A stretch of 28,835 bases of DNA from a virus, in IMG/VR virus record IMGVR_UViG_3300032245_001238, positions 1-28,835 of that record. One strand, written 5' to 3'. The notes beneath the pieces are model-generated. The model searched no databases. It saw only the letters and a program-made list of their open reading frames with translations, and was not told the DNA's origin. This document shows, one piece after another, positions 5,561 through 18,743 of this stretch. Position 1 is the stretch's first letter. Each line of letters opens with the position of its first letter. A program made the translations under genes and the position numbers.

Positions 5561-5920
5561 ATGCGTTTCTCTGAGTTTCTCAACAATACTAATAATGAAT
5601 TAGAGTCGGTGATTGTTAATACTCTACAAAATCTTAGAGGCGATGCTGATGAGCAAGGAGAAACAGCAGAGATTAGTTTCGATGCTCTACAACAAATAAT
5701 TAAAAACACAGGTTATGCTACTTTCAACTACAATCTATTTAAAAGTATCTATGACAAAGGCACTGCTCTAAAGAATGTTGTGGATGATTTTAACCAAGAA
5801 AAAATTGTTCTCAAAACAGAGAAACAGGCAGAAAAAGATCCTGCAATGAACAAAGACAATATTGGCAGTACAGATACTGTAAAAAAGATGGCTAAAGCAG
5901 CCATGAAAAGAAGAAGTTAA
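5561..5920 (+). CDS. Small helical hypothetical protein
   Basis: A 119-residue protein starting MRFSEFLNNTNNELESVIVN, 4 nt after the preceding gene. The N-terminal two thirds could form a small globular helical domain. The C-terminal third is Lys-rich and probably disordered (EKQAEKDPAMNKD; KKMAKAAMKRRS). It ends by overlapping the convergent radical SAM gene by 4 nt. No motif is recognised. Co-location suggests it works with the large helical protein just upstream. Confidence 0.7.
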   Translation: MRFSEFLNNTNNELESVIVNTLQNLRGDADEQGETAEISFDALQQIIKNTGYATFNYNLFKSIYDKGTALKNVVDDFNQEKIVLKTEKQAEKDPAMNKDNIGSTDTVKKMAKAAMKRRS

Positions 5921-7227
5921 ACTTTATCCAACCACTCGGCAATCGTAGGAAATGTTTTTTTATAATCAGTTCCTCTTCTACGATCTAATTCTGTTAGATA
6001 AATTTTAAATTGTTTTTGTCTAAATAGATCAGGTTGTCTGTTTTCAAATTCGTTCATTATACCATTCATATAATTTTTATGATTAAGTTTAACAGAATCA
6101 GGATATCCATGACTATTAACATCAAAAAGATCCACAGCTTCTTTTAAACCAATGTCGTTAATTTTCCTACCAAATATACCCGGATATAGATATGGTCTTG
6201 GTCCAAAATTATGTGTACTGGCTTTCATCATAGACCAATAAACCGGTCTAATTTTTGACCATTTGTTTATATTTTTTACAAGCTCTGGCATGCCTGGCAC
6301 AGCAGTTGCAGTCAATGCAGAATTAATATTTTGTAGAGTATTAGATTCATTTAATATGTATTCAAAGTTTTTTTGAAATAACTTTAAATCTAATCCATTC
6401 CTAACATATTCTGCTTCAGCACCCCACGAATCAAGAGATCCTATGATCTGTAATTTGTCTAATCTTTTTTCTTGCACAAGACGATTTAATCTTTGTACCC
6501 AATTTTTAACTCTTTCATGATCCACAGTTAAATTACTAAAGAAACATAGAGTAAGATCTGGTAATTCTTTTTGTTCTAAAAAAGCAATCATTCTTTCTGT
6601 TTCTTTTTGTATGAAAGGCTCTCCTCCTAAAATAATTAATTTGTGTAAATGATGTATATTTTTTTCAAACCAAAGAAATAATTTCTCTGTAGCTTCTTCA
6701 ATGCGTGTAAAATTTGCAAATTCTCTGTTCCATTTTGCATCCATAACTACACCTTCTGTATTAAATGGTCCAAATCGTTTTTCCTCTTGATGTATTTTTG
6801 AACTAAAAATTTGACTACAATATATACATTTTAAATTACAAGTGTTTCCCCAGTATACTTCTAATATTCGAGGAGTAAGTTCAACTGCATCTAAATTATG
6901 CTCTAATTCTGGAGGTGCAGTGGTACCTTCCATATTAAGATGTATAGTTCTATCACTAGCTCCTCCAGCTTGTTCTATATGTTTACAATGTTCACAACCA
7001 TTACCGGGCCACTCTCCCTTCAACATCTTTTTTCTTTCCTCAATCTTGTTAGGTATGTTATGAAAACCCAATACTTCTCCGCTTAGATCTAAAGGTCCAT
7101 ATCCTGCTCTATGACAACTAGCAGTATATCCGTCTGTAAGATAAACTGTGGAATGTGTCCATTTGAGTTGGCAAGCTATGCCTTTTTTTACAGGAAAAAT
7201 TTTAGGAGGTTGTTGAGATATTCCCAT
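5917..7227 (-). CDS. Twitch-domain radical SAM enzyme
   Basis: A 436-residue protein from the ATG at 7227; a TTG six codons earlier is possible. The chosen start overlaps the stop of the upstream gene as TAATG, a coupling arrangement. The radical SAM 4Fe-4S motif is CNLKCIYC (Cys 130, 134, 137), and LGGEPF (about 200-205) supplies the SAM-binding GGE. An N-terminal cysteine-bearing part (Cys 19, 38, 78, 81, as SCHRAGYG and GCEHC) precedes the barrel and looks like the twitch-type auxiliary cluster of phage radical SAM proteins that carry it N-terminally. The substrate is unknown. It is AT-rich relative to the flanking structural genes and pairs with a second radical SAM gene, suggesting a two-enzyme modification step on a shared substrate. 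Confidence 0.88.
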   Translation of the reverse strand: MGISQQPPKIFPVKKGIACQLKWTHSTVYLTDGYTASCHRAGYGPLDLSGEVLGFHNIPNKIEERKKMLKGEWPGNGCEHCKHIEQAGGASDRTIHLNMEGTTAPPELEHNLDAVELTPRILEVYWGNTCNLKCIYCSQIFSSKIHQEEKRFGPFNTEGVVMDAKWNREFANFTRIEEATEKLFLWFEKNIHHLHKLIILGGEPFIQKETERMIAFLEQKELPDLTLCFFSNLTVDHERVKNWVQRLNRLVQEKRLDKLQIIGSLDSWGAEAEYVRNGLDLKLFQKNFEYILNESNTLQNINSALTATAVPGMPELVKNINKWSKIRPVYWSMMKASTHNFGPRPYLYPGIFGRKINDIGLKEAVDLFDVNSHGYPDSVKLNHKNYMNGIMNEFENRQPDLFRQKQFKIYLTELDRRRGTDYKKTFPTIAEWLDKV

Positions 7228-8240
7228 TAGTTTACTCCACAACAATGATAACAGGCATTTAATCTTACATCAGTATTGGTGCCATTTATACCTTGTTCTA
7301 ATTTACGAAAAAAAGATCCTTTTAATATTTCATCTAGTGATGTTTTATTTAAATTTATTTTATCATAATCGTTTATTAATTTTTGTGATTCGTGTGTTTT
7401 TGGATCACCTATCCAACAGCAAGGAGTAACATAACCAGAGGCTAATAGATATATTTCAAATTTATTATTAGAACACGACACACAAGATATTTTTCTTGTT
7501 GCAAAATCATTTACTATCTCATTTGGAAGAATTTTTTTATTAATTTTTTCTACAACAGTAGTAAGTTTTTTTTCGAATGACGGTTTTTCGATATAATAAT
7601 CATCCACTTGAATTTTATCAACATCTCTAAAGGTACCATCATAATCATAATCTTTCCATCTGGATGTAAAATCTAAATGAAAATTTTTAAATCCCATACT
7701 TTTTGCTAAATCTTTTGCTTCTGTTGATTGTTGCTGATTATGTTTAAAAGAGAACATTCTCCATCCAGCTTTGCCACCAGCTGCTATAAAAGCTCGAGCA
7801 TTTGCCATGAGCTTGTCCCATTTAACATTCCTTCTGTAGAGATGATTAGTATCCTCTAAGCCATCGATATGAAAAAGGACCTCAACTCTTAACTTTGCTA
7901 ATTCTGCCCAAAACTCTGGTGTTCTAGCACCGCCGTTAGTAAAAAGTTCCAACTGACATGTACTATTGTTTTGTCTAAGATGTTCATATATCTCTAGGCA
8001 TTCTGGATTCATAGAACCATCACCATATGTGCCACAAGAATAAAAACGATTTAATCTTTTTATGATGTTCAATCCAATTTTATCTTTTATTAAATCCAGT
8101 GATGTGTGAGAGTTATTGGTAACATCTTTTCTCAGCTCTAATTTAAAATTAAATCTAGAACACATAGGACAGGCAGCATTACAGTAGTTAGACAGCTCTG
8201 CATTGATACTGTTAATATTATCGATTGTGATATATGACAT
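7227..8240 (-). CDS. Radical SAM enzyme with Cys-rich SPASM-like C-terminus
   Basis: A 337-residue protein starting MSYITIDNINSINAELSNYC. The radical SAM motif CNAACPMC has Cys at 20, 24 and 27, and YGDGSMNPE stands where many families have GGEP. C-terminal cysteines (ISCVSC; TPCCWIGD; ACYHCCGVN) fit a SPASM/twitch auxiliary Fe-S region, as in peptide- or protein-modifying radical SAM enzymes. The stop codon overlaps the start of the second radical SAM gene (TAATG), so the two are translationally coupled. The gene is divergent from the PD-(D/E)XK nuclease with only 14 nt between starts. What it modifies is not evident; no obvious precursor peptide is adjacent. Confidence 0.85.
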   Translation of the reverse strand: MSYITIDNINSINAELSNYCNAACPMCSRFNFKLELRKDVTNNSHTSLDLIKDKIGLNIIKRLNRFYSCGTYGDGSMNPECLEIYEHLRQNNSTCQLELFTNGGARTPEFWAELAKLRVEVLFHIDGLEDTNHLYRRNVKWDKLMANARAFIAAGGKAGWRMFSFKHNQQQSTEAKDLAKSMGFKNFHLDFTSRWKDYDYDGTFRDVDKIQVDDYYIEKPSFEKKLTTVVEKINKKILPNEIVNDFATRKISCVSCSNNKFEIYLLASGYVTPCCWIGDPKTHESQKLINDYDKINLNKTSLDEILKGSFFRKLEQGINGTNTDVRLNACYHCCGVN

Positions 8241-15787: not shown

Positions 15788-15863
15788 GCCCTAATAGCTC
15801 AATTGGTAGAGCAACTGATTTGTAATCAGTAGGTTTGCGGTTCAAGTCCGTATTAGGGCACCA
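15788..15863 (+). tRNA. tRNA-Thr (anticodon UGU)
   Basis: Acceptor GCCCTAA/TTAGGGC pairs fully. The D arm is AGCTC..GAGC, the anticodon stem ACTGA/TCAGT with loop TTTGTAA (anticodon TGT, reads ACA), and the T arm contains GTTCAAGTC. The encoded 3' ACCA is present. Confidence 0.95.
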
Positions 15864-15865
15864 CT

Positions 15866-15940
15866 GCTCCCATCGTCTATCGGTTAGGACATATGGTTTT
15901 CATCCATAAAAGCGGAGTTCGATTCTCCGTGGGAGCGCCA
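15866..15940 (+). tRNA. tRNA-Glu (anticodon UUC)
   Basis: Acceptor GCTCCCA/TGGGAGC, anticodon stem TATGG/CCATA with loop TTTTCAT (anticodon TTC, reads GAA), T arm CGGAGTTCGATTCTCCG, encoded GCCA end. It lies 2 nt after tRNA-Thr. Confidence 0.95.
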
Positions 15941-15943
15941 AGG

Positions 15944-16020
15944 GCACCTGTAGCTCAACTGGATAGAGTGTTGGTCTTCGAAACCAAAGGTTATAAGTTC
16001 AAATCTTATCAGGTGCACCA
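15944..16020 (+). tRNA. tRNA-Arg (anticodon UCG)
   Basis: Acceptor GCACCTG/CAGGTGC, anticodon stem TTGGT/ACCAA with loop CTTCGAA (anticodon TCG, reads CGA and possibly other CGN), T arm ATAAGTTCAAATCTTAT, encoded ACCA. CGA is visibly frequent in the phage genes, for example several times in nrdA. Confidence 0.93.
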
Positions 16021-17998: not shown

Positions 17999-18202
17999 TT
18001 AATCGCGGTCCCACTGAATAGAACGAAAAGGCATTGGTTTACCATTTGCATCCACAATCAATTCACCATTAATTGCTGCTGACATATATGTGCCTTGTCC
18101 CACAGCTTTACCTACATATTTAGACGCTCGTACTTCTTGTCCTTTGTAGTAACGTTTCTTCTGTTCCTGTCTTAATCCAGGATTGTTTTTTGATACACCC
18201 AT
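17999..18202 (-). CDS. Small hypothetical protein next to tmRNA
   Basis: A 67-residue protein from the ATG at 18202, starting MGVSKNNPGLRQEQKKRYYK and ending RSIQWDRD. It is basic and beta-prone with no membrane segment. A longer reading to 18286 would run into the acceptor piece of the opposite-strand tmRNA and adds an unrelated Thr/Leu-rich stretch, so the shorter start is preferred. The sequence before it (AATTATAGTATC) has a TATAGT -10-like element. I do not recognise the family. Confidence 0.6.
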   Translation of the reverse strand: MGVSKNNPGLRQEQKKRYYKGQEVRASKYVGKAVGQGTYMSAAINGELIVDANGKPMPFRSIQWDRD

Positions 18203-18249
18203 GATACTATAATTAGCAGAATTTGACAACAATGTCAATATATGTTTAA

Positions 18250-18552
18250 ATAACCGTGTAAACGTTGAAGTGATTGTAATAATCATTTGGGACTCGGCTC
18301 GATGCCGACACCTCCACCAAAGTTATTATTGGTGGCTTATGTAATCCCTATCGGGGGTGAGATGTTTCGACCTGTGAGTAAAAGATCATGGAGTTTATCA
18401 GTTAGGTACCCTGTAAAGGTCCAATGTTATAAATGCTACTAAAAAAGCATTTGGATTCGCTGACTTAACAGTTGGTAGATCTAAAATGAGATTAGCTGCT
18501 TAATAACCAGCTACCTCGGGGCACGGGCAACGCCTGGCAACAGAAGTTGCCC
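18250..18552 (+). ncRNA. ssrA: Circularly permuted (two-piece) tmRNA
   Basis: Gene order is acceptor piece, short spacer, coding piece, the alphaproteobacterial permuted arrangement. The acceptor piece ends CACCTCC-A-CCA (18309-18319) after a T-arm hairpin TCGGC/GCCGA. After a 33-nt spacer the coding piece starts GGGGGTG (18353-18359), which pairs with CACCTCC over all 7 positions (one G-U), then a D-like TTTCGAC. Helix P2 can form between GATCAT/GTTTA (18384-18397) and TAAAC/GTGATT (18259-18275). The tag frame runs 18435-18503: resume codon GCT preceded by TA at -5/-4, 22 residues starting ATKKAFGFAD and ending SKMRLAA, then TAATAA within a hairpin AGCTG/CAGCT. The 3' end GGGCAAC/GTTGCCC (18525-18552) looks like the last pseudoknot. 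The outer 5' edge is approximate. It should rescue stalled ribosomes. Confidence 0.88.
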
Positions 18553-18560
18553 ATAAAATT

Positions 18561-18743
18561 ATGAGCTACTACGTGATAGAAGGTGAACACATGGACCCGA
18601 ATGATCGGGATACCATAACAGAATCTACAAAAAAGAGACACGGGCCATTTGATGATGAGAGTATGGCCAATCAATTAGCCACATCATTGATACGAAAGAA
18701 TATAGACAATTACTACCATCGAGCATGGGTAATTAATGAATAA
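18561..18743 (+). CDS. Small hypothetical protein after tmRNA
   Basis: A 60-residue, highly charged protein, MSYYVIEGEHMDPNDRDTIT, starting 8 nt after the tmRNA 3' end and therefore possibly on the same transcript. The C-terminal half is helical (DDESMANQLATSLIRKNIDN). Its end overlaps the next start by 8 nt, supporting that it is translated. No recognisable motif and no clear Shine-Dalgarno. Confidence 0.6.
   Translation: MSYYVIEGEHMDPNDRDTITESTKKRHGPFDDESMANQLATSLIRKNIDNYYHRAWVINE

Follow-up and report, generated by a model that had tools for sequence, protein, structure and literature searches.

A long conserved tag encoded by permuted tmRNA genes of aquatic phages, and its possible pairing with a phage ClpX

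The tmRNA gene analysed here raises the question of why a phage would encode its own tmRNA with an unusually long tag, and what would read that tag. The candidate purposes of the catalogued phage tmRNAs are extra rescue capacity, inhibition and selective degradation; the tmRNA database lists 79 phage sequences, with 10 amino acids as the commonest tag length (PMC11915505). That marine phages can carry two-piece tmRNA has been published before and is not new: Buchholz et al. reported a two-piece ssrA in Methylophilales phage Melnitz and counted 53 such tmRNAs across phage genomes, of which 50 are marine or aquatic, in a paper on Melnitz and Mosig that contains no discussion of tag peptides or Clp proteins (PMC9004378). 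In the openly accessible literature, we found no report of a GFADLTV tag or of its pairing with a phage ClpX.

The permuted tmRNA gene and its surroundings

The window, i.e., the whole stretch of DNA that was analysed, is an IMG/VR virus record of 28,835 bp. The original prediction held that it carries a circularly permuted tmRNA gene of the alphaproteobacterial form, and a covariance-model search (Rfam cmscan of the window) bears this out, with matches above the cut-offs to RF01849 (alpha_tmRNA) at 18204-18555 (+) (87.5 bits, E 1.1e-22, gathering score 50) and to RF04321 (tmRNA_permuted) at 18258-18503 (+) (80.1 bits, E 4.4e-14, gathering score 47). The segment 18256-18552 (+) is a permuted, two-piece tmRNA of the alphaproteobacterial type. 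ARAGORN missed it and listed only three tRNAs in the window, at 15788-16020. The window phage resembles Melnitz and pelagimyophage Mosig in the complete permuted alphaproteobacterial-type tmRNA, the aquatic setting and the lack of obvious lysogeny (PMC9004378); unlike the phage tmRNA of that study, which adjoins a glutamine riboswitch (PMC9004378), the gene lies in a window where cmscan detected no riboswitch at Rfam thresholds. The features of the locus are as follows.

18240-18249 (+): TGTTTAAATA box directly upstream of the tmRNA 5' piece, a putative promoter element; position conserved in most relatives
about 18256-18319 (+): acceptor piece, including the T arm, with the 3' end CACCTCC-A-CCA; from the sequence and the RF01849 and RF04321 alignments
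18320-18352 (+): intervening sequence of exactly 33 nt, with GGTGGCTTATGTAATCCC; from the sequence
18353 to about 18552 (+): whole coding piece, starting GGGGGTG (GGGGGUG); from the sequence
18353-18434 (+): 5' part of the coding piece, with the GGGGGTG acceptor strand, TTCGAC and internal helices, up to the resume codon; from the covariance-model alignment and covarying helices
18435-18506 (+): tag frame ATKKAFGFADLTVGRSKMRLAA followed by TAA TAA; from the sequence, the tag family in 54 IMG/VR contigs and purifying selection at codons 5-13 and 19-22
18507-18552 (+): 3' domain, with the GGGCAAC/GTTGCCC stem (18525-18552) and the conserved CCTGGCAACAGAA; from the sequence and the RF01849 alignment

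The predicted closure of a 7-bp acceptor stem across the 33-nt spacer can be read directly in the sequence: all seven pairs form, one of them a G3-U70 wobble, the known AlaRS (alanine) identity pair, and both A73 and an encoded CCA are present. Likewise, the tag frame ends in LAA-TAATAA as had been proposed, with the resume codon GCT at 18435, 22 codons up to 18500 and the stops TAA TAA at 18501-18506; the frame GCT...TTAGCTGCT TAA TAA thus runs from an alanine resume codon to a stop and ends in RLAA, the hydrophobic-AA ending of a degron. SAR11 tmRNAs have exactly this context at the resume site, TTATAAAT|GCT. The gene shares with alphaproteobacterial permuted tmRNAs the upstream acceptor piece, the intervening sequence, CCA, G3-U70, GCT after ATAAAT and the LAA end. 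It differs from them in its 22-residue tag of the K/R-A[L/F]GFADLTV...RLAA form (9-10 residues in the sampled hosts), in a conserved 33-nt spacer (about 7-10 nt) and in a T stem that has one base pair fewer in the window subclade than in the family model (TCGG-CTCGATG-CCGA, about 18294-18308). Among other relatives the T loop alternates between GGCAGTA and TTCGATT, and the tag is kept throughout.

The upstream box stands at an equal distance from the tmRNA in most relatives, as TGTTTAAATA, GCTTAAATA or GGTATAATTA, and the other TTTAAATA-like motifs of the window lie inside genes, besides one TATAAATA at 1713; the TGTTTAAATA box is probably a dedicated promoter for the tmRNA. A small conserved gene (17999-18286, -) is divergent from the tmRNA; the start listed for it overlaps with the tmRNA, and translation more likely begins at an internal ATG (18202). 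At most 10 nt past the 3' end of the tmRNA begins the gene for a DUF4170 protein (18561-18743, +; 25.6 bits, barely above the cut-off). Two neighbouring radical-SAM proteins, encoded at 5917-8240 (-) against the direction of the genes around them, are conserved in relatives.

The window shares most of its genes with the records G135, G140, G148, G172 and G175 as well as with the 172-kb record G176, and in these relatives the tmRNA keeps its position behind nrdA, nrdB and the genes for a PAAR protein and a protein of 402 aa. Mosig has the closest match to the nrdA of G176 (71%), a further likeness to this pelagimyophage. The T4 gp9/10-like and baseplate proteins encoded by G176 suggest a contractile-tail phage; a search for the T4-type capsid protein Gp23 gave no match, and the controls were silent too.

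Conservation of the RNA fold and of the tag peptide

Both the acceptor stem and the tag frame are conserved in the relatives. In an alignment of 35 sequences related to the window tmRNA, the six-pair helix that connects the acceptor piece with the coding piece shows pairing in 209 of 210 cells, with as many as five standard pair types at a single pair and numerous compensatory changes; one of these pairs, for instance, occurs as U-A (16), U-G (12), A-U (3), C-G (3) and G-U (1). The T stem also covaries, and two relatives have G-C in place of C-G at one pair of the acceptor stem.

The spacer, GGTGGCTTATGTAATCCCT, is one of the best conserved regions of the gene, though it is presumably removed on maturation, and 49 IMG/VR stretches match its motif. 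GGTGG occurs in 42 of 144 distinct viral spacers, against 1.0 expected from shuffling, and in none of the host spacers. Given that GGTGG, which lies within GGTGGCTTATGTAATCCC, is complementary to CCACC of the acceptor strand, a CCACC/GGTGG hairpin that competes with the acceptor stem in the pre-tmRNA is possible; its pairs are near invariant, which makes covariation indecisive on this point. The motif is not required, because relatives without it retain the tag.

The tag of the window has 22 residues, with five Lys/Arg and a single Asp/Glu, in line with its original description as carrying several Lys/Arg and being about twice the usual length. A DNA pattern for the tag matched 65 stretches in IMG/VR, 54 of which are tmRNAs with the long tag, and these contigs yield the consensus A-x-x-K/R-A[L/F]GFAD[L/F/V]T-(variable)-RLAA with 22, 23 or 25 residues. 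These contigs show a conserved long tag in a group of phages that are mostly uncultured. Permuted tmRNA genes in general are common in viral contigs, since at least 119 IMG/VR stretches match a DNA pattern for them, and many of these encode short tags that resemble those of hosts, for example ANESYALAA and ANDNFAPSGFALAA. Among named phages, blastn with the window tmRNA gave only chance-level matches, blastn with a second family member and with an ANESYALAA-type tmRNA gave none, and tblastn with the 22-aa tag, a query so short that the sensitivity of the search is unproven, gave none either.

Selection on the tag was assessed in a set recruited through the spacer, with no use of the tag sequence, given that the tag pattern itself fixes residues and would make the test circular. 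The 44 readable tags of this set comprise 37 of the ALGFADLT type, three of the variant ALRFADLV...LRLAA and four short ones, ADESYAHEELALAA. For the 24 distinct 22-codon tags, pN/pS is 0.054 in A[L/F]GFADLTV and 0.0 in RLAA, compared to 0.58 in residues 1-4 and 0.64 in the linker, and pS is level along the tag (0.26-0.33 in all blocks). The low ratios at level pS indicate that selection acts on the peptide in two blocks and preserves the peptide rather than the RNA. Moreover, RNA scaffolds that differ in acceptor stem (CCACTCC/GGGGTGG), T loop and spacer carry the long tag as well. The start of the tag is free of an AANDN-like (SspB-type) adaptor motif, reading ATKKAFGF in the window and AN(K/T/R)(K/R)ALGF in most relatives. 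A conserved, phage-specific degron is well supported. A two-block peptide under selection on divergent RNAs, unlike the tags of the sampled hosts, argues that some phages write their own message on rescued proteins.

The bacterial tags available for comparison have nine residues in SAR11 (ANNKLALAA, ANNKVALAA, ANDELALAA, ANDDLALAA and ANESYAIAA) and ten in the MED657 order (ANDNEMALAA, ANDNTMALAA and ANDNEMVLAA). On this comparison, the long phage tag is unrelated to the tags of the sampled bacteria, SAR11 and the MED657 order, which may not include the host of the window phage. Across 84,980 species genomes scanned, the long tag was found in only three contigs, all labelled as parts of MAGs, two of them assigned to the 'Rickettsiales' MED657 MAG and the third to a Pelagibacter MAG. 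One of the MED657 contigs and the IMG/VR record G133 are both 46,675 bp long, with identical coordinates of tmRNA and ClpX, and the MED657 MAG possesses a separate tmRNA (tag ANDNEMALAA) and a separate ClpX. A host origin of the tag was rejected on these grounds. The contigs in question (L185, L187 and L192) look like phage contigs binned into GTDB species genomes (MED657 and the Pelagibacter MAG), to which they add extra copies of ssrA and clpX.

The suggestion that the gene probably came from the host lineage is weakly supported. In a midpoint-rooted tree of the core RNA, the phage group lies beside the SAR11 and MED657-order genes (support 0.92), which is weakly in its favour; the long-tag group and seven other viral genes, including the ANAFKPEV...ELVAA-tagged ones, form a virus-only clade that is nested in neither host group, and the tag, unrelated to those of the sampled hosts, is not host-derived. 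Because this clade falls outside SAR11 and the MED657 order, a host-lineage origin of the tmRNA is plausible only at the level of the alphaproteobacterial type, and would be old.

ClpX in the long-tag phages

No SmpB was found in 48 records, whereas control genomes gave matches, and host SmpB must therefore be used. A family scan with phrog_4871 gave matches of about 20 bits in 14 records that looked like noise at first and proved to be ClpX. The 427-aa ClpX of G176 contains zf-C4_ClpX (PF06689, 52 bits) and AAA_2 (PF07724, 108 bits) domains and matches structures of ClpX from E. coli and other sources in the PDB with E of about 1e-124. The same record also encodes a full ClpA of 768 aa (L279, 4554-6860, +), and G169 encodes a ClpP (L283, 1136-1681, -; 250 bits).

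Of 47 long-tag records, 16 encode ClpX, as against one of 38 other tmRNA-bearing viral contigs. When only long-tag records whose tmRNA is flanked on each side by 20 kb or more are considered, all 13 encode a full ClpX, 10-22 kb from the tmRNA; among the other tmRNA contigs with 20 kb on both sides, one of five does, at about 33 kb. Fisher's test for 13/13 versus 1/5 gives 0.0016, but the members of the lineage are not independent, so the result denotes an association and not a cause; it may reflect mere shared ancestry of one phage lineage. ClpX is present in many other phages too, including Bacillus phage G, which is likewise listed with ssrA (PMC4131195) and whose gp258 is matched by the phage ClpX query at 45% identity; phage G differs in having another host and a ClpX that is only distantly similar.

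The phage ClpX proteins form a clade of their own (support 1.0) and are 50-52% identical to host ClpX. In an alignment of 15 proteins, the Walker A and B motifs, the GYVG pore loop, the RDVSGEG segment, the RKH loop and the (I/M)GF ClpP-docking loop are intact, and the proteins look like active, ClpP-docking unfoldases. As the usual ssrA-binding loops are kept, the phage ClpX need not prefer the phage tag.

No ClpX was found in the window or in the available sequences of its subclade, which stop before the syntenic place of the gene in G176: L325 and L397 both end short of it, L325, the closest syntenic relative, by a few kb, and extension of L325 by two DNA-pattern scans still did not reach the expected place. 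The predicted pairing of tag and ClpX is accordingly based on the long-tag relatives outside the window's own subclade.

Proposed mechanism and competing explanations

On balance, we favour the view that the gene is a working phage ssrA that uses host SmpB and AlaRS and encodes a phage-specific tag, the unfoldase being probably the phage ClpX in long-tag phages with enough flanking sequence. Transcription would start from the TTTAAATA/TATAAT-like box just upstream, and the transcript would be cleaved into two pieces that are held together by base-pairing. Charged with alanine by host AlaRS, the tmRNA would enter stalled ribosomes together with host SmpB during infection and append the 22-residue phage-specific tag to the fragments. 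The tag appears to be bipartite, with an N-terminal recognition block, K/R-A[L/F]GFADLTV, a tolerant linker and the C-terminal degron RLAA. Degradation would proceed via RLAA, with the GFADLTV block read by the phage ClpX or an adaptor, and in long-tag phages with enough flanking sequence the phage ClpX would be paired with host ClpP. The outcome would be recycling of ribosomes in infection, with the tagged fragments sent to a proteolytic machine of the phage's choice. The earlier idea that the phage replaces or modifies host trans-translation is sharpened by this scheme: the phage brings its own RNA and conserved tag, no SmpB, and, in relatives, ClpX.

It is conceivable, although it remains a rather tentative extension, that this aquatic phage lineage has its own branch of trans-translation and proteolysis, consisting of the tmRNA, the bipartite tag (K/R-A[L/F]GFADLTV and RLAA) and a co-evolved ClpX, to which the host supplies only SmpB, AlaRS and ClpP. 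Were this the case, rescued fragments would be diverted from host control, and the tmRNA and ClpX may amount to a virus-owned rescue-and-degrade pathway. A partial parallel is Pseudomonas phage pf16, which also supplies a part of the ssrA-ClpXP route, the adaptor SspB; it does so without a tmRNA (PMC5587285), whereas the long-tag phages with enough flanking sequence have both tmRNA and ClpX.

Host ClpXP should read the phage tag too, via its LAA end, and this bears on the first rival explanation, under which the phage tmRNA merely raises the amount of tmRNA during infection, host ClpXP reads LAA and the extension, a habit of the lineage, is not specially recognised. The ending of the tag, the presence of ClpX and permuted tmRNA in the hosts and the retention of short host-like tags (ANESYALAA, ANDNFAPSGFALAA) by other phages all fit such a role. 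We nevertheless consider it unlikely, if worth serious attention, given that pN/pS of 0.05 in A[L/F]GFADLTV versus 0.64 in the linker, at equal synonymous divergence, points to selection of the extension as a peptide, and that the block is kept across scaffolds differing in acceptor stem, T loop and spacer. Alternatively, the tag could serve as a non-degradative or other kind of mark, for instance by stabilising, inhibiting or relocating a host factor, or tagged products could block the host protease. The block is indeed long, basic, conserved and unlike SspB-binding AANDN-type tags, but the invariance of RLAA (pN 0.0) is what is expected for a C-terminal AAA+ degron, and long-tag phages with enough flanking sequence encode ClpX, which renders this explanation quite improbable.

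As a decoy, the RNA would titrate SmpB and inhibit trans-translation in the host. This role has a precedent in the one proposed for the tmRNA of mycobacteriophage DS6A, which is limited to a tRNA-like domain (PMC4131195), and agrees with the lack of a phage SmpB; a full tag frame under strong purifying selection and a complete two-piece fold with the alanine identity pair make it very improbable here. Hardly credible is a functionless host ssrA remnant left by imprecise prophage excision, even though integration at ssrA is common and prophages contain fragments of the gene (PMC9004378): it is already contradicted by the same genomic place of the gene in relatives, and the virus-only clade and the conserved tag unlike those of the sampled hosts also speak against it.

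The nearby ClpX is a candidate reader of the tag, a question accessible with purified proteins. Furthermore, the tag offers a peptide signature for infection proteomes and a 10-residue block that calls for a receptor.

Other long phage tags, ANAFKPEVTVP(M/V)S(V/I)FAD(Q/A)ELVAA and ANANFKPEAFTSIDMSMDSELLAA, are encoded in L046, L061 and L095, and possibly represent a second long-tag family. An unrelated phage contig, L096 (G209, 181,816 bp), combines a permuted tmRNA (tag ANDRNVNDNEPAMAVAA), an ACCAGGTGG spacer hairpin and, at a distance of about 33 kb, a ClpX.
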